Positions 8,308-35,939 of a stretch of DNA of 64,000 bases are shown piece after piece. The notes under the pieces are model-generated. The model made no database searches and had not been told where the DNA came from. It was given only the letters and a program-made list of their open reading frames with translations. The DNA comes from Alphaproteobacteria bacterium (GTDB lineage Bacteria > Pseudomonadota > Alphaproteobacteria > Micropepsales > Micropepsaceae): positions 1-64,000 of the forward strand of contig JANXXU010000045.1 in NCBI GenBank assembly GCA_025350465.1, read 5' to 3'. How positions within the stretch are numbered: the first letter of the stretch is position 1; each line of letters opens with the position of its first letter. The position numbers were made by a program, and so were the translations under genes.

Positions 8308-8336
8308 TATTTAGCTAAATGACTAATCGTTGTCAA
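8308..8336 (-). promoter_or_regulatory. Promoter and operator of the sdpR-like operon, nearly leaderless
   Basis: On the minus strand there is a perfect -35 TTGACA (8336-8331), a 17-bp spacer and a -10-like TAAATA (8313-8308). The perfect 12-bp palindrome ATTTAGCTAAAT (8309-8320) covers the -10. The predicted transcription start falls within a few bases of the ATG at 8299, and no Shine-Dalgarno sequence is present, so the mRNA is probably leaderless or nearly so. Confidence 0.7.
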
Positions 8337-8425
8337 GGGGTCAACAGAAGTTGCGACAATGTGGGTGCTCCTCAACATGCCCAACGCGATGGATTCGGCC
8401 CGCGTGGCGTAGTAATCCGTGCGTG

Positions 8426-9370
8426 ATGATCCCCGCCCCCGCCGTGCATCGGTTTGCAAGTGCCGCCGTGCTTTCCGTTGTTGCCGCACTGACGATGTTG
8501 CCGAGCCAGGCGCTCGGTTGTGCCTGTGGCTGCGGCGTATTCGAAATCGGTACCGCTTCGCTCCTGCCATCGGCGCCGGGCGTCACCGGATTCCTCGAAT
8601 ACGACTACTCCGATCAGAATCGAAACTGGAGCGGCGCCTCGCGCGCGCCCGCGTCCGACAACAGCGACAAGGAAATCCAAACGCATTTCTTCACGGCCGG
8701 CATCCAATATATGTCCGACAACGGTTGGGGCGTTATGGCCGAACTGCCGTATTGGCAGCGCCACTTCGAGACGGACCCCGGCGGCGGCGTCATTTCGATC
8801 GACCACGGTTCGATCGGCGATATTCGCATCCAAGCCTCCTATGCCGGGTTCTTCGAAGACATGTCCACGGGCGTCACCGTCGGTCTGAAGCTGCCAACGG
8901 GCGACTACAAGGATCCGCGCTTCGACCGGGACACGGAAATCGGCACTGGGAGCACCGACATTATCCTGGGCGCATTTCACCATGGCGCGATCAGCGACAC
9001 GGGCAAATGGAATTATTTCGTCGAGGCTCAATATGAGACGGCCTTCGCCGATCGCGGCGGCTATCGACCGGGCAACGAACTGAATGTCTCGGGAGGCCTC
9101 GCCTACTCCAGCATCGATATCGGCGCGGGGCTGAGGCTCTCGCCGTTGTTGAAAATCACGGTGTCGGATCGCGACCGTGACACCGGCCCGAACGCAAGCT
9201 TGGGCGATAGCGGCTACGAACGCGTGCTTATAGGCCCCGGTGTTGAAGTCGGCGGCGATTCTTGGCGCCTTTATGCCGACGTCGAAGTTCCGATCTATCA
9301 GCACATGAATGGCAACCAGCTGGTGTCGCCGGCGCTGGTGAAGGTCGTCGCCGCGTATTCGTTTCCCTGA
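8426..9370 (+). CDS. Outer-membrane beta-barrel protein (MetA-like transporter family)
   Basis: 314 residues with a signal peptide ending near SQALG, directly followed by a cysteine cluster CACGCGVFEIG and then repeated amphipathic beta strands (TGFLEYDYSDQNR, FTAGIQYMSDNGWGVMAELPY, GVTVGLKLPTGDY, ALVKVVAAYSFP ending in Phe-Pro). Size and strand pattern fit outer-membrane proteins annotated as phenol-degradation MetA-like. The four-Cys motif at the mature N terminus is unusual for a barrel and could bind metal or form a disulphide plug. It is divergent from the sdpR-like gene. GTG at 8423 is an alternative start. Confidence 0.7.
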   Translation: MIPAPAVHRFASAAVLSVVAALTMLPSQALGCACGCGVFEIGTASLLPSAPGVTGFLEYDYSDQNRNWSGASRAPASDNSDKEIQTHFFTAGIQYMSDNGWGVMAELPYWQRHFETDPGGGVISIDHGSIGDIRIQASYAGFFEDMSTGVTVGLKLPTGDYKDPRFDRDTEIGTGSTDIILGAFHHGAISDTGKWNYFVEAQYETAFADRGGYRPGNELNVSGGLAYSSIDIGAGLRLSPLLKITVSDRDRDTGPNASLGDSGYERVLIGPGVEVGGDSWRLYADVEVPIYQHMNGNQLVSPALVKVVAAYSFP

Positions 9371-9386
9371 TCAAGTCGCCTCACGG

Positions 9387-9845
9387 TCACCCGTGCTTTG
9401 CGCGCGGAAACTTTTCGAGCTCGAGCTGCCGCTGGATGATTTCGTCGCGGAAGCAGTCCATCGCCTTCAATGAATTGAGCGAGCCGCGCCGGCGGCTGTA
9501 GACGAGGCACTTCGCATCCTTGCGGTCCGACCACGCGGCTTGGCCGGTTTCGAGGCGCGAACGGTCGGCTGGCCGCGCTTTGATCAAGCTTGCGAATATG
9601 CGGTCCAATTTCCGCTGCTGAAACTCGACCTCTTGGGAGTCGCAATGCTGCATGGCCCGCATTCCTTTCGCGAGCCTCACACATTTCGTGAATTGGCTGC
9701 TGGCGCGCGTGGCGTGGGCGCTCGCTTCATGTGCCGCACGACCGTCGGCCCGAGCCGGCGCCACGGCCAACCCCTGCGCCGCAAGCGCGACGCAGGTCAT
9801 CAGCGCTACAATATGAAGGCGGGTTCTGGACACTTGGAGCGTCAC
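9387..9845 (-). CDS. LprI-like (DUF1311) secreted protein
   Basis: A 152-residue exported protein starting at GTG, seven bases after GAGG. The signal peptide ends near APARA. The mature part contains DRIFASLIKARPADRSRLETGQAAWSDRKDAKC, the W-x2-R/K-x-A-x-C signature of the DUF1311 domain, to which the lysozyme inhibitor LprI belongs. Cysteines are in positions expected for two disulphides. It is convergent with the beta-barrel gene. A periplasmic lysozyme-inhibitor role is possible, but many DUF1311 proteins are uncharacterised. Confidence 0.8.
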   Translation of the reverse strand: MTLQVSRTRLHIVALMTCVALAAQGLAVAPARADGRAAHEASAHATRASSQFTKCVRLAKGMRAMQHCDSQEVEFQQRKLDRIFASLIKARPADRSRLETGQAAWSDRKDAKCLVYSRRRGSLNSLKAMDCFRDEIIQRQLELEKFPRAKHG

Positions 9846-10781: not shown

Positions 10782-10944
10782 GCCCTACCTCGGTGTCGGC
10801 AAGGGGTGAGATTCAAGGCGAGGCGAGCACCCTGCCCCGCTTCCCAGTCAGGGTCCGGGCGCATCGACGTTTGATCCTGGTCATTGAGCCCCCTGCCCTC
10901 TTTGTCCGATGATGGCGCCCGCGCGTGGCCAACCGGGTCTACCC

Positions 10945-11301
10945 ATGATGACGAACTCCAAACAGCTTGCCGGGTTGATCGGGCCGACGCTCGTGGCGCT
11001 CGGCGTGACCGAGGCGATGAATCTCGCCGTTTTCGCGGGCAACACGCCGGCGGTCGTCTATTTCAACGGAACGGTTCTTTTCGTCGCCGGCCTCGCGATC
11101 GTGCGTGTGCACAATCGTTGGGTCCTCGATTGGACGGTGCTTGTGACGCTCACGGGTTGGGCGGCGATGCTCGGCGGCCTTTATCGGATGATCGCGCCGC
11201 AAGCTCCCCAAGCGCATGACGGCATCGCCGCGACCGTCATGTTCGCGCTGATCGTGCTCGTCGGCGCGTTCTTGACCTATCGCTCGTTCGCGCGCGATTG
11301 A
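10945..11301 (+). CDS. Small integral membrane protein of unknown function
   Basis: 118 residues from the first of two adjacent ATGs (MMTNSKQLAGLIG). Four hydrophobic helices: LIGPTLVALGVTEAMNL, TVLFVAGLAIV, WTVLVTLTGWAAMLGGLY and VMFALIVLVGAFLTY. It resembles short four-helix membrane proteins annotated only as hypothetical. It stands alone between the arsR operon and the multicopper oxidase gene, to which it is convergent. Confidence 0.65.
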   Translation: MMTNSKQLAGLIGPTLVALGVTEAMNLAVFAGNTPAVVYFNGTVLFVAGLAIVRVHNRWVLDWTVLVTLTGWAAMLGGLYRMIAPQAPQAHDGIAATVMFALIVLVGAFLTYRSFARD

Positions 11302-11341: not shown

Positions 11342-12793
11342 TTAGGCATAGTCGAAGAGTGCCATGAATCCGAAATCCATGTGCAGCTGCTGATGACAGT
11401 GGAAAAGCGTCGGACCGGGATTATCGGCAATGAAATCAAATTCAAGCTCTTGAAATCCGCCCAACATGACGACGTCCTTGATCACGCCCGCGGTCGGCTT
11501 ACCACCAACACGCGTCAGTTCGAAGCTGTGCCGATGCAGGTGCAGCGGGTGGATGTCGTCGCTGGCGTTGCGGAATTTCAGGCGATAGCGGCGACCTTGT
11601 TGCAAAGTGTATTTCGGCTTCATGGTCCGCATTGAAAAGGCATCACCATTGATCGTCCACTGGTTGAAGCCATTGAGTGCGGCATTGCGCTTGACGATGG
11701 TCATCTCGATCGTCTCGTCAGGCGAGGGCGACGCAGCAGCATTCGACTTACCGAATTGCGCGTAGTCCCAGCGGAACGGCCTTGGCTTGACCCAGTGCGG
11801 CTTGCCCTTATGGCCCGCGTATTCGATGACCACGCCCATCCCATGTCGGCGATCGTCGTCGGCGAGGTCGCCAAGCACCCACACGCCAGGATGATTCATT
11901 TCGACAAACGCAGAGACGCGCTCGGCGGTGCCAAGCCAGAGCACCGGGACATCGCTCTGCGTCGGCACGGGATTGCCGTCGAGTGCGACGACTCGAAAGA
12001 CATGGCCCGGCAGAGCGAGGCTGCGGATCTCGGTCGCACTTGCATTGAGCACATGAAACAACACTCGCTCGCCTTGCTTCACGCGAACGGGTTCGCCGTG
12101 GCCAAGCATTCGGCCATTGATGCAGAACAAGGCGTAGCCAACCTCAAAGCCCTTGGTCTTCTCCTGCGCCTCCTCGTCGGCCGCCTTTCCCATCTGCTGC
12201 AACGCCTTGACGGGCGCACCTGCCAGCACGTCCATTGCCATGTCGCCGCCCCGGCTGAGCGCCGGCGCAAATTCCTTCAGCACCAGAAAAACTTCGCGAT
12301 CAAAGTCTCCGGGATTGTTCTTCGGCTCGACATAGACCGGCCCGGCCTGCCCGGTGTAGGTGCCCCGGTTTAGGTCACCGCCGGCGGCGACGTGCGTGTG
12401 ATAGAACCTGAACCCCGAGGGTTGAGGCACGAAAGCAATCCGACGCATCCCGTGCGCCGGCACGAACGGCGAGCCTTCCTCGGCCGCGCCGTCCACATCG
12501 CTCGGGATCGTCTGTCCGTGCCAATGGACCAACTCCGGCGTGTCGGTGTCGTTATGAATTTCGATCACGACGCGCTGCCCCTCATTCATGCGCAGCAAGG
12601 GTCCGGGAAACGCGTCGTTGTAAAGCGTTGTCGAGACGATGTGGTCCGGCGCGAGCTCAATCAGCCCCGTCCCAATGCGCAGGGTGTGGTCCGCCCGTTC
12701 GATTGTTGTTGCGCCGGCATGTGCGACGCGAGACACCGCGCCCACCAGCGGAGCGAGTCCTGCATATTTGAGCAAAGCGCGGCGATCAATCAT
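11342..12793 (-). CDS. Tat-exported three-domain multicopper oxidase
   Basis: 483 residues. The twin-arginine start MIDRRALLKYAGLAPL implies export of the folded, copper-loaded enzyme to the periplasm. All four copper motifs are present: HWHG (90-93), HTH (132-134), HPLHLH (415-420) and HCHQQLH (465-471), giving a type 1 site and a type 2/3 trinuclear cluster. The residue five after the last histidine, the usual axial position, reads as Phe, which in laccases goes with a high redox potential. Possible substrates are Cu(I), Fe(II), Mn(II) or organics. It faces the hemerythrin-like/cytochrome cluster across a 320-bp region that holds an FNR-type box. Confidence 0.9.
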   Translation of the reverse strand: MIDRRALLKYAGLAPLVGAVSRVAHAGATTIERADHTLRIGTGLIELAPDHIVSTTLYNDAFPGPLLRMNEGQRVVIEIHNDTDTPELVHWHGQTIPSDVDGAAEEGSPFVPAHGMRRIAFVPQPSGFRFYHTHVAAGGDLNRGTYTGQAGPVYVEPKNNPGDFDREVFLVLKEFAPALSRGGDMAMDVLAGAPVKALQQMGKAADEEAQEKTKGFEVGYALFCINGRMLGHGEPVRVKQGERVLFHVLNASATEIRSLALPGHVFRVVALDGNPVPTQSDVPVLWLGTAERVSAFVEMNHPGVWVLGDLADDDRRHGMGVVIEYAGHKGKPHWVKPRPFRWDYAQFGKSNAAASPSPDETIEMTIVKRNAALNGFNQWTINGDAFSMRTMKPKYTLQQGRRYRLKFRNASDDIHPLHLHRHSFELTRVGGKPTAGVIKDVVMLGGFQELEFDFIADNPGPTLFHCHQQLHMDFGFMALFDYA

Positions 12794-13114
12794 GTCTTAG
12801 GCGACGATGTTGGTTGTTGCCCGATCATTTGCGATTAAAATACCGGAGGCGGGGCGGCTATCAACGACCACGTGCGCGAATCGCCAATTCCTTTTCTGGC
12901 CTTCTCCGGGCACCATTTGTTCCTTTTTCGGCGCATCGAGACTTTCGGCGGAAGAACCCTGCGCTACGCAGACATTCTCAGTATGATGGCGCGTGAAGCA
13001 GTGCCAATTTTATAGCGATCGTGTTTCAAGGCCTTGATCCGGATCAACACCTCATGCCGGTCGCTATGACAGATTATGACAATATGGTCCGATCGTCGGC
13101 CCGGAGGAACAGCA
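12794..13114. other. Intergenic region between divergent redox genes
   Basis: No gene seen. It holds the perfect FNR-type box at 13034-13047 and the hemerythrin-like gene's ribosome binding site. I found no clear promoter close to the oxidase start at 12793; the box lies about 240 bp from it, so control of the oxidase by this site is only possible, not shown. Confidence 0.6.
13034..13077 (+). promoter_or_regulatory. Perfect FNR/FixK-type box and -10 upstream of the hemerythrin-like gene
   Basis: TTGATCCGGATCAA at 13034-13047 is an exact match to the FNR/ANR/FixK consensus TTGAT-N4-ATCAA and is a perfect palindrome. A -10-like GATTAT follows at 13072-13077, which would put the box about 41-44 bp before transcription start, the class II activator position. 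The same spacing is seen before the cytochrome c gene. Confidence 0.75.
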
Positions 13115-13663
13115 ATGCGTCATAGATCATGGACGGTACTCGCGCTGGCGGCGTTCACCGCGGCGCTGGTGGGATCTTGGGGATTTGCGGCGACCCCGCC
13201 TGCGCCATCCCAACATTTGATTCCTCAATCGCTCATCGTTGAGCACCAAGACACGCTCGAGCGCCTCACCGAGCTGACGCACCACCGCGGCGCAGTCGGG
13301 CAAGAGGCGCGCAAGGCCCTTGCCCTTTTCAAGGCCCATACGGCGCGCGAGCAGGAATACATTCTGCCGCCTTTAACTCTGCTGCCGGACCTTGCTGCCG
13401 GCAAGGTCACACCCGACATGGCTTGGGCGCTTACCATGGCGGATCGAGTGAGGGCCGACCGCGCGCAGATCGACCAGGAGCACGTGCAGGTCACAGAAGT
13501 GATGACTGCGCTTTTTAACGCGGGACAGCGCGCCAAAGACAAAGAGGCCATGGATTTTGCGCGCTCCGGCGTGGCTGATTCACTAAACGACAGCGAGTTG
13601 CTCGAGCCCATGGTGTTGATGATCGGGGACACTCTGCGCAGCAAGCTGCCCTCCGCTCGGTAG
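13115..13663 (+). CDS. Periplasmic hemerythrin-like (HHE-type) protein
   Basis: 182 residues after a strong ribosome binding site (GGAGGAA). The signal peptide ends near SWGFA. The mature protein is all-helical with IVEHQDTLERLTEL, then AHTAREQEYILPP and later IDQEHVQVTEVMTAL. This reproduces the H ... H-x3-E ... H pattern of hemerythrin/HHE domains that bind a di-iron centre. Export is unusual for this fold. With an FNR-type box in front, a role in binding O2 or NO or in storing iron in the periplasm is plausible. It heads a probable transcript with the two membrane proteins that follow. Confidence 0.6.
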   Translation: MRHRSWTVLALAAFTAALVGSWGFAATPPAPSQHLIPQSLIVEHQDTLERLTELTHHRGAVGQEARKALALFKAHTAREQEYILPPLTLLPDLAAGKVTPDMAWALTMADRVRADRAQIDQEHVQVTEVMTALFNAGQRAKDKEAMDFARSGVADSLNDSELLEPMVLMIGDTLRSKLPSAR

Positions 13664-13738
13664 CTACGACGGCGAACATAAGTTCGCGGGCAGCGTCCGT
13701 TCGACGCTCGCGCCGGCGCGACCGAGGAGACGACGGCT

Positions 13739-14305
13739 TTGCAGATCACCTTCCGGGATATGATCACAATGCTCCATGGCATGGGGTTCGGCGCGCTGTT
13801 CATGCTCGCGTTCTCCGGAGCCGTCGGGGTTATCTACGCGACCGCAGTGGTGGGCCCGCGATGGCCGTCTTCGCGATGGGACAACAAAATGTTCCGTTTC
13901 TATCTGATCAGCATGGCGGCGCTCGCTTGGCTGACAGTCCTGTCGGGAACGTATCTCGTCTATCCGTGGTACCGCGCAGTTCCTCCGGCAGGGACGACAG
14001 ACCTATCCGCCTATCCGCAGCGTCTATTGCTTGCGAGCCCGCTAACGGCCGAGTGGCACAATTTCGGAATGGAGTGGAAGGAGCACATCGGTTGGTTCGC
14101 GCCGATCGCGATGACGATGGTCGCTTATGTATTCATCAAGTATGGCCCGCAACTCGCGTTCCATCGCACCATGCGCAACACGGTGCTCGGCTTCATAGCG
14201 GCGGCCTTCTTGGCCACGGCGGTAGCTGGCGCCTTTGGCGCGCTTCTCAACAAATACGCGCCCATCCGCGGCGGCGACGCCATTGTTCTTCTCAGGGGCA
14301 AGTAA
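13739..14305 (+). CDS. Integral membrane protein of unknown function, redox-cluster member
   Basis: 188 residues if started at TTG, nine bases after GAGGAG; an ATG at 13760 gives 181. Four or five helices (LHGMGFGALFMLAFSGAVG, LISMAALAWLTVLSGTYLV, IGWFAPIAMTMVAYVFI, LGFIAAAFLATAVAGAFG). Histidines in LHGMG, EWHNFGMEW and KEHIGW lie at or near helix ends, where they could ligate haem, but no known cytochrome b signature is complete. It lies 75 bp after the hemerythrin-like gene and 1 bp before the next gene. Confidence 0.7.
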   Translation: MQITFRDMITMLHGMGFGALFMLAFSGAVGVIYATAVVGPRWPSSRWDNKMFRFYLISMAALAWLTVLSGTYLVYPWYRAVPPAGTTDLSAYPQRLLLASPLTAEWHNFGMEWKEHIGWFAPIAMTMVAYVFIKYGPQLAFHRTMRNTVLGFIAAAFLATAVAGAFGALLNKYAPIRGGDAIVLLRGK

Positions 14306-14306
14306 C

Positions 14307-14690
14307 ATGGCCGCGCACATCGATCAGGAGTCCGTCAATACGTCGCCCGCAGCCGAAGACGCCCGATCTGAATTGCTTCCCAATGGAGCCGGCGCGGCCG
14401 CGATCCTTGCGGCCGGCGTTGGCTCGCTCGCGATCGGCGTGTTCGCCTTCGCGGCAGACGTCTCGCCGTATTTGAAGAACGCTTTCAATTTTTGGAGCCC
14501 CAGCGGCCCCTTGTCCGGCGTCTCGTTCACCGCGGTCCTTGTCTGGCTCTTGGTTTGGTTTTGGCTGTCCAGGCGTTGGGCCGCTCGCGAGGTGAACTTT
14601 GCGCGTGCCAGCGCGGCAGCATTCGCGATGCTGATCGCCGGATTGTTGCTCACGTTTCCGCCGTTCATGGACTTACTGCAGGGCAAGTAG
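14307..14690 (+). CDS. Small integral membrane protein, redox-cluster member
   Basis: 127 residues starting two bases after the stop of the preceding membrane protein, so translation is probably coupled. A polar N terminus (HIDQESVNTSPAAEDARSE) is followed by three helices: AAAILAAGVGSLAIGVFAFA, SFTAVLVWLLVWFWLS and AFAMLIAGLLLTFPPFMDLL. I do not recognise the family. The tight linkage suggests a complex with the 188-residue protein. Confidence 0.7.
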   Translation: MAAHIDQESVNTSPAAEDARSELLPNGAGAAAILAAGVGSLAIGVFAFAADVSPYLKNAFNFWSPSGPLSGVSFTAVLVWLLVWFWLSRRWAAREVNFARASAAAFAMLIAGLLLTFPPFMDLLQGK

Positions 14691-14742
14691 CGCGCCAGTC
14701 TCCCTAACCATCGCCGTATCCGCTGCGACCTTTTTGCCCCTC

Positions 14743-14786
14743 TTGATCTAACTCAATCACTCGAGAAGAGGATCAGTTCGTATAAT
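14743..14786 (+). promoter_or_regulatory. FNR/FixK-like box and -10 before the cytochrome c gene
   Basis: TTGATCTAACTCAA at 14743-14756 matches TTGAT-N4-ATCAA except for the first base of the second half. A perfect -10, TATAAT, is at 14781-14786. The distance from box centre to -10 equals that at 13034-13077. Since the ATG at 14785 lies inside this -10, the coding start must be downstream, at 14833. Confidence 0.65.
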
Positions 14787-14832
14787 GACAAAATCGATTG
14801 ATACATACGCCAAACACACTGAGGTCGATCCC

Positions 14833-15228
14833 ATGGTCCGTTCACCTAGGCTTTCTCTCGCACGCGGGTTGAGTCTCGCGCTCGCCTTGTTGCTCTGGAA
14901 CGCACCGCACGCATTTGCAGCGGGCGATGCGGCGAAGGGCGCGGATGTCTTCAAGCGCTGTACGATTTGCCACAATGCCGACAAAGACGGGCCCAACAGG
15001 ATCGGGCCCAATCTGTTCGGCGTCGTCGGGCGCGCTGCCGGCACCGTTTCTGGGTACAGCTATTCGACGGCAATGAAGGCGTCGGGTGTCACCTGGACCG
15101 AAGCCAACCTCACCGACTATCTGACCGATCCGAAGAAAAAGGTGCCCGCCAATAAAATGAGCTTCGCCGGCATATCCGATGCAAGTCAACTTGCCGATCT
15201 GATCGCCTATCTCAATACCCTGAAATAG
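14833..15228 (+). CDS. Class I cytochrome c, periplasmic
   Basis: 131 residues with a signal peptide ending near HAFA. The haem motif is CTICH, and the distal methionine is probably that in KMSFAG, giving His/Met ligation. The segment GPNRIGPNLFGVVGRAAGT is typical of soluble c-type cytochromes of the c2/mitochondrial-like group that carry electrons between membrane complexes and terminal enzymes. The start at 14833 was chosen because GAGG precedes it and because the upstream ATG lies in the -10 element. It is a natural electron partner for the multicopper oxidase and the cytochrome-barrel nearby. Confidence 0.92.
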   Translation: MVRSPRLSLARGLSLALALLLWNAPHAFAAGDAAKGADVFKRCTICHNADKDGPNRIGPNLFGVVGRAAGTVSGYSYSTAMKASGVTWTEANLTDYLTDPKKKVPANKMSFAGISDASQLADLIAYLNTLK

Positions 15229-15346
15229 ACTTACCAACCTCCGACTTGGCAGGCGCATTCTTCGCCAGCGTCGATGCATTGGACGCGCCTTGTCGCCCTC
15301 TGTGGCTAGCTGCGCAGCGTCGCCACGTCGGCGTGTGAACCGGACG

Positions 15347-16702
15347 TCAGTCTAAGACCCACAAGAACACCCTCGCCGTGTTGTTATCGGAGGCGCCGTG
15401 AGTGTCTCCATCAAACTTGTCGTAGGCGGTAAATTGCACGCCGACCCTCATGTTGAAGCGAGGCCCGAACGGGGAATCGCCCTCGCCGAATGGGGTGTAG
15501 TCGACTTGGAGCGTCACGCCGTCGCTGTCGGGAGAACCATTGGCAGTGCCATAGAGCGCGGCGTCCGAAGAGCCCCAGATCGTGAACGGCGAAATCGTAA
15601 AGCCGACCTGATTGTGCCAATAGTAAGCCGCGTCGAAATGCGCCTCCTGCAGCGTATTATGCGCGTTCGTCCCGGCGAGCGCTTGTGAGGCGTTCAAATC
15701 CTGATTCTCGTGCGTGTAGCGGAAATTGACCGAGTACACGTCGCCCTTCGGCTCGATATATTGGTAAGAAGCATCGACGCCGAGATCGGCGTAGTTGTCA
15801 CTGCCCGCGCTCGAGTCGGCGCCGGGAAAGAGATGCGGGAAGAAGGCAAAGCCGCCGACTTCGAAGTTCTGCTCGCCGTAGTCTTTTTGATACGCGACCC
15901 GGAAATACGGTGCCGCACTGTCGACGACGCCTCCGGCGTTACGATCGACGCCCATGGCCTTCAAGAAGCCGCGCCCCGGCGTCCAATAGAGTCCTGCTTC
16001 CGTATAGATTTGCGAGTTCCACAACGCGTAGGCGCTGACACCGAGCGTCGACTGGGCAAGCGCGCCGGAGATGACGGTCCCAGCCGCCGGACCGGGTGCT
16101 AAGGCGCTGTCGGTGAAAGGAAAGCCCCACGCGGGCAACGTATTCCAGACATCCTGCGTGGTTGGCGAATTGTTCAAGGTTAAGCCCAACAATACATCGG
16201 AGCCCGCGATCGTCGCGTGCGTGATGGCGCGCACATCCAAATTGTCCCAGCCGAATGTTCGGCCGACGCCATCGTAAGTGAATTGGGCGAAGCCGCCGAA
16301 ATGATCGCCGATGCCGCCGGCGAGAAAGATGTTCGCTTGATCGAGCGTGAAGTTATCGTTCGTCCCGTAATGTGGCGCGGGAGGCGCTGCTTGATCCTTG
16401 TCCGTGTGCACATAGCTCGCGATCGCCATCACCGAGATGGGCACCGTAAATGCGCCGACGTTGGAGGTATAACCTTCAAGCTTGAATTGTCGGCCGAGGG
16501 GCGTGAGTTGCGGACCGAGCCCGCCGACGTGACAGGCCGTGCAGGGCTGACCCGTCTGCGCCGCGAACGCCGGAACAGCCAAGGCCTCACCGCTCGATAT
16601 GCCGAGTGCACCGAAGAGAATTAAGCAGGCAAACGGCAGCTGAACGTTCCAAGGCAGGCGCGACGGCGTGCCGCCCTGACGATCGGTGCGAGTCGGACGC
16701 AT
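15347..16702 (-). CDS. Fused monohaem cytochrome c / outer-membrane beta-barrel, Cyc2-like
   Basis: 451 residues. After the signal peptide the mature N terminus reads PAFAAQTGQPCTACHVGG, then PQLTPLGRQFKLEGYT, with a single CxxCH (Cys54-His58). The remaining roughly 380 residues are alternating amphipathic strands ending LWVLD. This cytochrome-porin order and the FAxQTGxxCxxCH ... LTPxGRxFKLxGY pattern are those of the Cyc2 group, outer-membrane cytochromes known as Fe(II) oxidases, and of related proteins of unknown function. The start was chosen at ATG with AGGA nine bases before it; a TTG at 16720 is possible. It converges on the cytochrome c gene. Confidence 0.72.
   Translation of the reverse strand: MRPTRTDRQGGTPSRLPWNVQLPFACLILFGALGISSGEALAVPAFAAQTGQPCTACHVGGLGPQLTPLGRQFKLEGYTSNVGAFTVPISVMAIASYVHTDKDQAAPPAPHYGTNDNFTLDQANIFLAGGIGDHFGGFAQFTYDGVGRTFGWDNLDVRAITHATIAGSDVLLGLTLNNSPTTQDVWNTLPAWGFPFTDSALAPGPAAGTVISGALAQSTLGVSAYALWNSQIYTEAGLYWTPGRGFLKAMGVDRNAGGVVDSAAPYFRVAYQKDYGEQNFEVGGFAFFPHLFPGADSSAGSDNYADLGVDASYQYIEPKGDVYSVNFRYTHENQDLNASQALAGTNAHNTLQEAHFDAAYYWHNQVGFTISPFTIWGSSDAALYGTANGSPDSDGVTLQVDYTPFGEGDSPFGPRFNMRVGVQFTAYDKFDGDTHGASDNNTARVFLWVLD

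Positions 16703-33922: not shown

Positions 33923-35939
<2,017 letters not shown>

Follow-up and report, generated by a model that had tools for sequence, protein, structure and literature searches.

A Cyc2-like cytochrome-porin in a six-gene cluster with FNR/FixK-type boxes from an alphaproteobacterium of the Micropepsaceae

What brings a cytochrome fused to a porin together with a multicopper oxidase, a hemerythrin-like protein, a cytochrome c and two membrane proteins without a recognized family? The six genes in question, MCO, HHE, MP1, MP2, CYTC and PORCYT, lie at positions 11342-16702 of a 64,000-nucleotide stretch of contig JANXXU010000045.1 (positions 1 to 64,000, assembly GCA_025350465.1, Micropepsaceae), here called the window. 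A first-pass annotation had described them as a candidate oxygen-responsive redox island, a combination that it did not know as a named system. The reading that we favor, and for which we find the evidence evenly poised, is that they encode a module for the uptake of extracellular electrons under low oxygen, most likely from Fe(II), which was assembled horizontally around a variant Cyc2.

The cytochrome-porin and its relation to Cyc2

PORCYT (15347..16702, minus strand) encodes a protein of 451 amino acids with a single CXXCH heme motif (CTACH, residues 54-58). No Pfam or NCBIfam family matches it at E 0.1. Its AlphaFold2 model has 16 strands of at least 9 residues and one of 3, with a mean predicted local distance difference test score (pLDDT) of 63.5 and a predicted template modeling score (pTM) of 0.69. 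The modeled barrel superimposes on the porins OmpC (2xe5; Z 19.7, root-mean-square deviation [rmsd] 3.8, 295 residues aligned), OprO (4rjw; Z 19.3, rmsd 3.7, 294 aligned) and OprP (2o4v; Z 19.1, rmsd 3.9, 299 aligned). A profile search of the PDB sequences returned azurins only (best E 0.14), and these were judged spurious.

In the available part of their paper, Keffer et al. define Cyc2 by CXXCH, the upstream motif AXPXFAR[Q/K][T/Y], PXL at a distance of 4 residues past CXXCH, and a fused porin with 16 strands in a protein of at least 365 residues, and a Cyc2 of Mariprofundus is shown to oxidize iron, at +208 mV (PMC8406198). PORCYT, with its 451 residues, has the CXXCH and, at moderate model confidence, the fused 16-strand porin. 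Where Cyc2 has AXPXFAR[Q/K][T/Y], PORCYT has AVPAFAAQT, with Ala for the diagnostic Arg, and the Pro of its PQL is the sixth residue past CXXCH, two later than in Cyc2. In the canonical relatives among the 47 sequences retrieved with the PORCYT query, the Pro of PXL is the fourth residue past CXXCH. Because the diagnostic Arg and the PXL spacing are missing despite the CXXCH and the modeled porin, PORCYT is, judged by these sequence features, a variant branch of the Cyc2 superfamily, Cyc2-like and not a strict Cyc2.

The strict motif was counted manually in 7 of the 47 sequences. As we read it, phylogenetic reconstruction places 6 of these 7 in a group of 10 and the window protein in the complementary group of 37 (support 97/98). 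All members of the larger group have the longer spacer between CXXCH and PXL, as do two plasmid sequences of the smaller one (L050 and L051; L numbers designate loci throughout). Nine plasmid relatives of PORCYT were found, and in 5 of the 6 inspected the next gene encodes a c-type cytochrome; in one of these relatives a HiPIP gene also adjoins.

The fused cytochrome and beta-barrel of the first-pass annotation is borne out by the one CXXCH near the N-terminus and the 16-strand model. The statement that the set is not a named system was too strong for the cytochrome-porin, because its likeness to Cyc2 had been overlooked.

The membrane pair, the other proteins and the promoter boxes

MP1 (13739..14305, plus strand) is predicted to be an inner-membrane protein with four long helices and the motif WH-x3-MEWKEH. 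Its presumed TTG start aligns with those of its orthologs, and it is separated by 1 nt from MP2 (14307..14690, plus strand), a small membrane protein with three hydrophobic segments. A scan of genome contigs for MP1 gave 39 loci, which together with the window and one Burkholderia plasmid make 41. MP2 adjoins MP1 in 40 of these; the exception, L009, ends at MP1. Neither protein has a Pfam or NCBIfam family over cut-off, and the weak matches of 39 MP1 members are scattered across 34 families. YPWYR, W106-H107 and M111-E112-W113-K114-E115-H116 are invariant in all 39 aligned MP1 sequences, and H13 is unchanged in the 33 that have that position. The MP1 model consists of four long helices (pLDDT 78.3, pTM 0.73). 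A Foldseek search of the PDB gave no match at E 0.001 or better, and the helical bundles listed by VIA-align 2 are generic ones (top Z 13.5, rmsd 2.8, 139 aligned) that may reflect a common arrangement only, so that we derive no function from the fold.

The loops of MP1 at residues 39-55 and 136-151 contain four and two Lys plus Arg, respectively, and residues 75-116 contain three Lys plus Arg and four Asp plus Glu. Because of these charges the invariant motifs are predicted to face the periplasm, if the positive-inside rule holds. The C-terminal tail, which would be periplasmic in that topology, has four Lys plus Arg and argues against it. MP1-MP2 may have a redox or metal role.

Titles of records with MP1 name Acetobacteraceae, Caulobacteraceae, Oxalobacteraceae, Paralcaligenes, Granulicella and Verrucomicrobiales, as well as Chloroflexi, Deltaproteobacteria, Armatimonadetes, Elusimicrobia and Actinomycetota. 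The neighbors of the pair differ among these groups. In Chloroflexota loci (L028, L030, L031, L032, L041 and L042) its neighbors are a response-regulator-like gene and a HisKA_3 sensor kinase, the latter verified by Pfam in L028 alone. In L023, L025, L026, L027, L034 and L038 it adjoins an exported protein family of PF13557 type, found in Acidobacteriota, Verrucomicrobiota and Oxalobacteraceae loci; the match is present in L023 and L025 and just below cut-off in L034, and in L038 the family protein shares one open frame with MP1. In L043 (466-6097) the pair is followed by one small gene and a molybdopterin oxidoreductase of 1170 amino acids with a Tat signal. In two metagenome-assembled genomes (MAGs) of Caulobacteraceae the gene after MP2 encodes a cytochrome b561: L012 (8934-9479; PF01292 checked) and L014 (assigned by clustering). 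On Burkholderia contaminans plasmid pB1701 (L006, 7899-8898) the pair lies between a Tn3-family transposase and chromate and mercury resistance genes, and such a plasmid is a possible route of its spread.

MCO (11342..12793, minus strand) matches Cu-oxidase, Cu-oxidase_2 and Cu-oxidase_3 over the Pfam cut-offs and is a three-domain multicopper oxidase. Its N-terminus, MIDRRALLKYAG, is an RR signal peptide that we take to be a Tat signal. The 11 checked positions that we presume to be copper ligands show no substitution in any of the 7 proteins aligned, and the axial position is Phe in five and Leu in two. MCO scores far below the NCBIfam cut-offs of CopA (109 versus 479 bits) and CueO (92 versus 525 bits), and its closest solved relatives by sequence are 6vow and 6vox. 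CYTC (14833..15228, plus strand) is an exported class I monoheme cytochrome c that matches PF00034 (Cytochrom_C) over cut-off; its closest solved relatives are cytochromes c and c2. For both genes, and for the positions of all six, the first-pass annotation was right.

HHE (13115..13663, plus strand) had been called hemerythrin-like. The window protein itself matches no hemerythrin profile, and its profile has zero matches among PDB sequences. PF01814 is matched by 9 of the 16 members of its family (E up to 1, best E 4.6e-5), and plasmid relatives with about 30% identity are annotated as hemerythrin domain-containing. H75 and E79 are present in 16 of 16 aligned sequences, H123 in 15 and H44 in 10. 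Against the His/Glu metal-ligand set that we presume for hemerythrins, the first histidine appears eroded. The label appears to hold only in the sense that HHE is an exported, divergent member of the family.

Two FNR/FixK-type boxes had been noted ahead of these genes, and both were recovered. TTGATCCGGATCAA (13034..13047), between the divergent MCO and HHE genes, has 10 of 10 consensus bases and is a putative site at a distance of 68 nt from HHE and 241 nt from MCO; it is the sole exact copy in the genome. TTGATCTAACTCAA (14743..14756), ahead of CYTC, has 9 of 10. Within the initial 40 kb of the window, 3 sites score at least 9, versus 0.25 expected from mononucleotide shuffles; the third falls inside MCO, and no box with such a score lies ahead of PORCYT in the window. 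In the home genome as a whole TTGATN4ATCAA occurs at 16 sites, versus 0 for a reversed control, and the full box with up to 2 mismatches 35 times, versus 1. The scan of proteins next to these sites covered ten, from 9 of the 16. Among them are COX1, a Crp/Fnr-type regulator with a divergent MFS transporter, a PAS histidine kinase, an AurF-like protein, a nitroreductase and a protein of the PLP aminotransferase fold; the names cbb3, FixL-like and ALA synthase-like for box-adjacent proteins are our own presumptions.

Orthologous genes have such boxes upstream as well. Across 14 island loci, 18 of 86 island genes are preceded, at no more than 300 nt, by a box with at least 9 of 10 bases, versus 5 of 180 other genes, and 12 of the 14 loci have such a box ahead of an island gene. 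Of the PORCYT genes outside islands, some have upstream boxes (for example L075, from the same genus as the window, L072 and L088) and others have none (L073, L077 and L080).

Recurrence and origin of the cluster

The gene-order comparison that the first-pass annotation had proposed was run on the 41 stretches. Gene calls outside the window come from a codon-usage score, on which gaps and gene ends there rest. Counts are lower bounds because contig ends shorten many stretches: with the window counted, PORCYT is on at least 13 stretches, HHE on at least 14, CYTC on at least 15 and an intact MCO on at least 7. All six genes stand together in L015, L016, L018, L021 and L022 as well as in the window, so that the six are neighbors in 5 other loci, from Acetobacteraceae and Caulobacteraceae, and the neighborhood is conserved across families. 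The order PORCYT-HHE-CYTC-MP1(-MP2) is found in 7 loci (L007, L009, L011, L016, L017, L020 and L022), where 9 to 102 nt separate successive genes as far as MP1. Among stretches without MP1, L089 has PORCYT-HHE-MCO-CYTC, and L090 and L068 have PORCYT-HHE-CYTC. L011 is from a culture-collection strain, Rhodopila globiformis DSM 161, and has the operon without an adjacent MCO; its CYTC is related to the solved cytochrome c2 1hro, whose source is the same species according to the reference title, yet is a different protein.

In L019 the other five genes are intact and MCO is a remnant in two pieces (8919-9504), so MCO may be the most dispensable part of the cluster. L019 and L021 also have second copies of HHE and CYTC next to PORCYT, downstream of the MP1-MP2 set. 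A gene that we take to be GroEL-like lies directly upstream of the island in the Acetobacteraceae-type loci L007, L009, L016, L019, L021 and L022; in the window such a gene is found 18 kb from the island (34290-35939, plus strand).

Co-occurrence was assessed in the genomes behind 25 of the 39 scanned loci (24 genomes, with L031-L037 and L039-L045 left out) and in the home genome. PORCYT is present in each of the 16 genomes with an MP1 that shares 70% identity or more with that of the window (the home genome, Acetobacteraceae, Caulobacteraceae and one MAG labeled Proteobacteria). MCO, at E 1e-40 or better, is present in 13 of these close carriers, in one of them partially, and in 1 of 9 more distant ones. 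In an even sample of the class, with the home genome counted in both figures, MP1 is found in 1 of 387 genomes and PORCYT in 16, most of which have no MP1. Because the carriers were selected for having MP1, these figures are a contrast of carriers with the class sample and not a test over all genomes.

The organism's own order gives a different picture of the neighborhood, which is not conserved there. With the home genome counted, PORCYT is present in 37 of 96 genomes (E 1e-5), MCO in 8 (E 1e-60), HHE in 2, the other copy being at most 33% identical, and MP1 in the home genome only (1 of 96). Since the order comprises just one family, an MP1 search repeated on the order (78 genomes, at least 85% completeness) had the same outcome. 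On the counts for MP1 and PORCYT, we rejected vertical inheritance of the entire cluster within the order.

Phylogenetic reconstructions reveal separate histories. In the tree of 47 PORCYT sequences the window pairs with its own genus (100/97), and 11 sequences from Acetobacteraceae-type islands form a separate clade (100/100). Adjacency to HHE or MP1, a label carried by 15 sequences with L068 (HHE adjacent) left unlabeled, needs at least three changes on this tree. The window MP1 groups with Acetobacteraceae sequences (90/87, not a strong branch), inside a strong set of 17 that includes Caulobacteraceae (98/99). The window MCO is nearest to Acetobacteraceae sequences (82% identity to L018), and the branches around it lack resolution. 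Because PORCYT groups with its own genus and MP1 is, within the order, confined to the home genome, MP1 and the genes accompanying it were probably acquired from elsewhere and added to a native PORCYT, which would make the cluster a mosaic.

Base composition does not break at the island (island genes 0.58-0.63 G+C, window 0.62), and scans of the window for Rfam families, at the gathering threshold, and for tRNAs gave zero matches. Judged from their translations, the flanking frames seem to have no connection with the cluster: a small membrane-like one (10909-11301) and, from 16982 onward, others that are acyl-CoA dehydrogenase-like and RND-like. Farther upstream, a frame at 8330-9370 (plus strand) encodes an exported, beta-barrel-looking protein with a CACGCG cysteine cluster directly past the signal region and no Pfam or NCBIfam match.

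Proposed function and comparison with known systems

From these features we propose regulator binding at the boxes, a substrate, a direction of flow, the single transfer steps and roles for MP1-MP2, MCO and HHE as follows. FNR/FixK-type control would switch the module on under low oxygen. PORCYT, in the outer membrane with its heme near the periplasmic mouth of the pore, would accept electrons one at a time from a soluble reductant outside the cell, with Fe(II) the likeliest. CYTC would ferry them over the periplasm to a terminal oxidase, probably one whose subunit I gene has a box of the same type, or, in phototrophic carriers, towards the reaction center. MP1-MP2 would form an inner-membrane complex with a metal or heme site on its periplasmic face (H13, H107, M111, E112, E115 and H116) and connect CYTC to the quinone pool by electron exchange. 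MCO and HHE would be periplasmic accessories for metal ions and for oxygen or NO. The parts fit the path between outer membrane, periplasm and inner membrane that the first-pass annotation had suggested.

Iron is the most likely substrate in view of the likeness to Cyc2, the cytochrome c partner, the HiPIP gene beside one plasmid relative and the names of the carriers, whose record titles mention peat, bog or lake. A study of R. globiformis springs gives ferrous iron of 57, 53, 0.36 and 50 µM in four samples, not necessarily those that hold the organism; Cyc2 is not mentioned in the available part of that text (PMC12542754).

Several observations weigh against electron uptake through a Cyc2-type conduit as the function of this cluster. 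Besides the substituted Arg and the shifted PXL of PORCYT, its residues 1-88, heme motif included, are modeled at low confidence (pLDDT below 50). PORCYT is found in 2 of the 9 more distant MP1 carriers, in one as fragments, and in several other phyla MP1-MP2 lacks a PORCYT neighbor, or even a PORCYT in the same genome. Of the 16 close carriers, 3 lack MCO and 1 has a partial one, and L011 and L022 have no box scoring at least 9 upstream of any island gene. The home genome has no PF00016 (RuBisCO) match and hence no lithoautotrophy by the RuBisCO route; of the 18 genomes searched, the home genome included, 14 match PF00016, 7 of them above 400 bits.

An alternative that we consider unlikely is that the cluster protects against metals. 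PORCYT and MCO would then oxidize Fe(II), Cu(I) or Mn(II) and shield a low-oxygen periplasm, HHE would bind O2 or NO, MP1-MP2 would handle metal, and little energy would be conserved. The lack of a RuBisCO match in the home genome agrees with this, as do the complete copper-ligand set of MCO, its place in the cluster in 7 of 41 loci and the chromate and mercury genes near MP1-MP2 on one plasmid. However, detoxification needs no dedicated cytochrome c, MCO fails the CueO and CopA cut-offs, and among the 16 close carriers, all of which have PORCYT, 4 lack MCO or have a broken one.

The separability of the genes raises another explanation, to which we give a low probability: MP1-MP2, HHE and MCO would share low-oxygen control and travel with the Cyc2-like pair while serving another process, such as NO or O2 stress. 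Two genomes (G481 and G483) have MP1-MP2 (L012 and L014) away from PORCYT-HHE (L089 and L090), MCO lies away from MP1 in several carriers, and MP1-MP2 is found without other cluster genes in other phyla. Against it stand the tight same-strand adjacency that is repeated with different PORCYT lineages and the co-occurrence of MP1 and PORCYT in 16 of 16 close carriers.

When oxygen is scarce, electrons might also run outward through the same parts and reach Fe(III) or some other acceptor, which seems improbable to us. FNR/FixK-type boxes would fit the use of an alternative acceptor, and Cyc2 and Cyc1 isoforms participate in ferric iron reduction in acidithiobacilli according to the accessible text of one report (PMC10715153). 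The class I, oxidase-donor type of CYTC and the oxidation of iron by a Mariprofundus Cyc2 (PMC8406198, in part) point the other way. Chance neighbors with chance boxes, an idea that the lack of this arrangement in the organism's order (MP1 in 1 of 96 genomes) might invite, have a negligible probability. This idea was rejected in view of an adjacency that is repeated with distant PORCYT lineages and in other families, of the recurrent boxes and of the PORCYT co-occurrence.

Electron uptake thus stays the favored reading, and under it the cluster can be set beside known systems. With the Cyc2 of Mariprofundus (Cyc2PV-1) and Acidithiobacillus it shares a signal peptide-like N-terminus, one CXXCH, a fused porin of 16 strands, modeled here, and an often adjoining cytochrome c gene. 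PORCYT differs from these in its Ala and its later PXL and in being accompanied by HHE, MP1-MP2, MCO and FNR/FixK-type boxes. The rus operon of Acidithiobacillus (cyc2-cyc1-cup-coxBACD-rus), as given in the available part of its description, likewise combines a cytochrome-porin with a periplasmic cytochrome c (PMC10654088), whereas the present cluster has no cupredoxin or cox genes and has MCO and MP1-MP2. The ircABCD genes of Gallionellaceae, compared by description and not by sequence, resemble it in encoding iron-responsive periplasmic cytochromes, a hypothetical protein and a b-type inner-membrane protein; unlike the cluster they include two c-type cytochromes, and the accessible portion of the account describes no porin, HHE or MCO with them (PMC12442390). 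MCO resembles CueO and CopA in its three cupredoxin domains and full copper-ligand set, and differs in falling far below both NCBIfam cut-offs. A description of this gene set was not found in the literature searched, whose coverage leaves out most subscription journals.

A more far-reaching proposal, which we regard as tentative and rather doubtful, is that MP1-MP2 is a new two-subunit inner-membrane redox or metal complex of several phyla. In Alphaproteobacteria a variant Cyc2 would have gained it more than once as its partner in the inner membrane, and the result would be an oxygen-regulated uptake chain unlike rus, Mto/Pio and irc.

Evidence for periplasmic and inner-membrane components downstream of Cyc2 is described as limited in the available text of PMC12442390. 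A recurrent operon that links a Cyc2-like porin, one cytochrome c and a membrane pair with invariant His, Met and Glu is a concrete candidate to fill this gap. If the favored reading is true, Cyc2-type conduits can be oxygen-controlled and can serve an organism that has no RuBisCO match.

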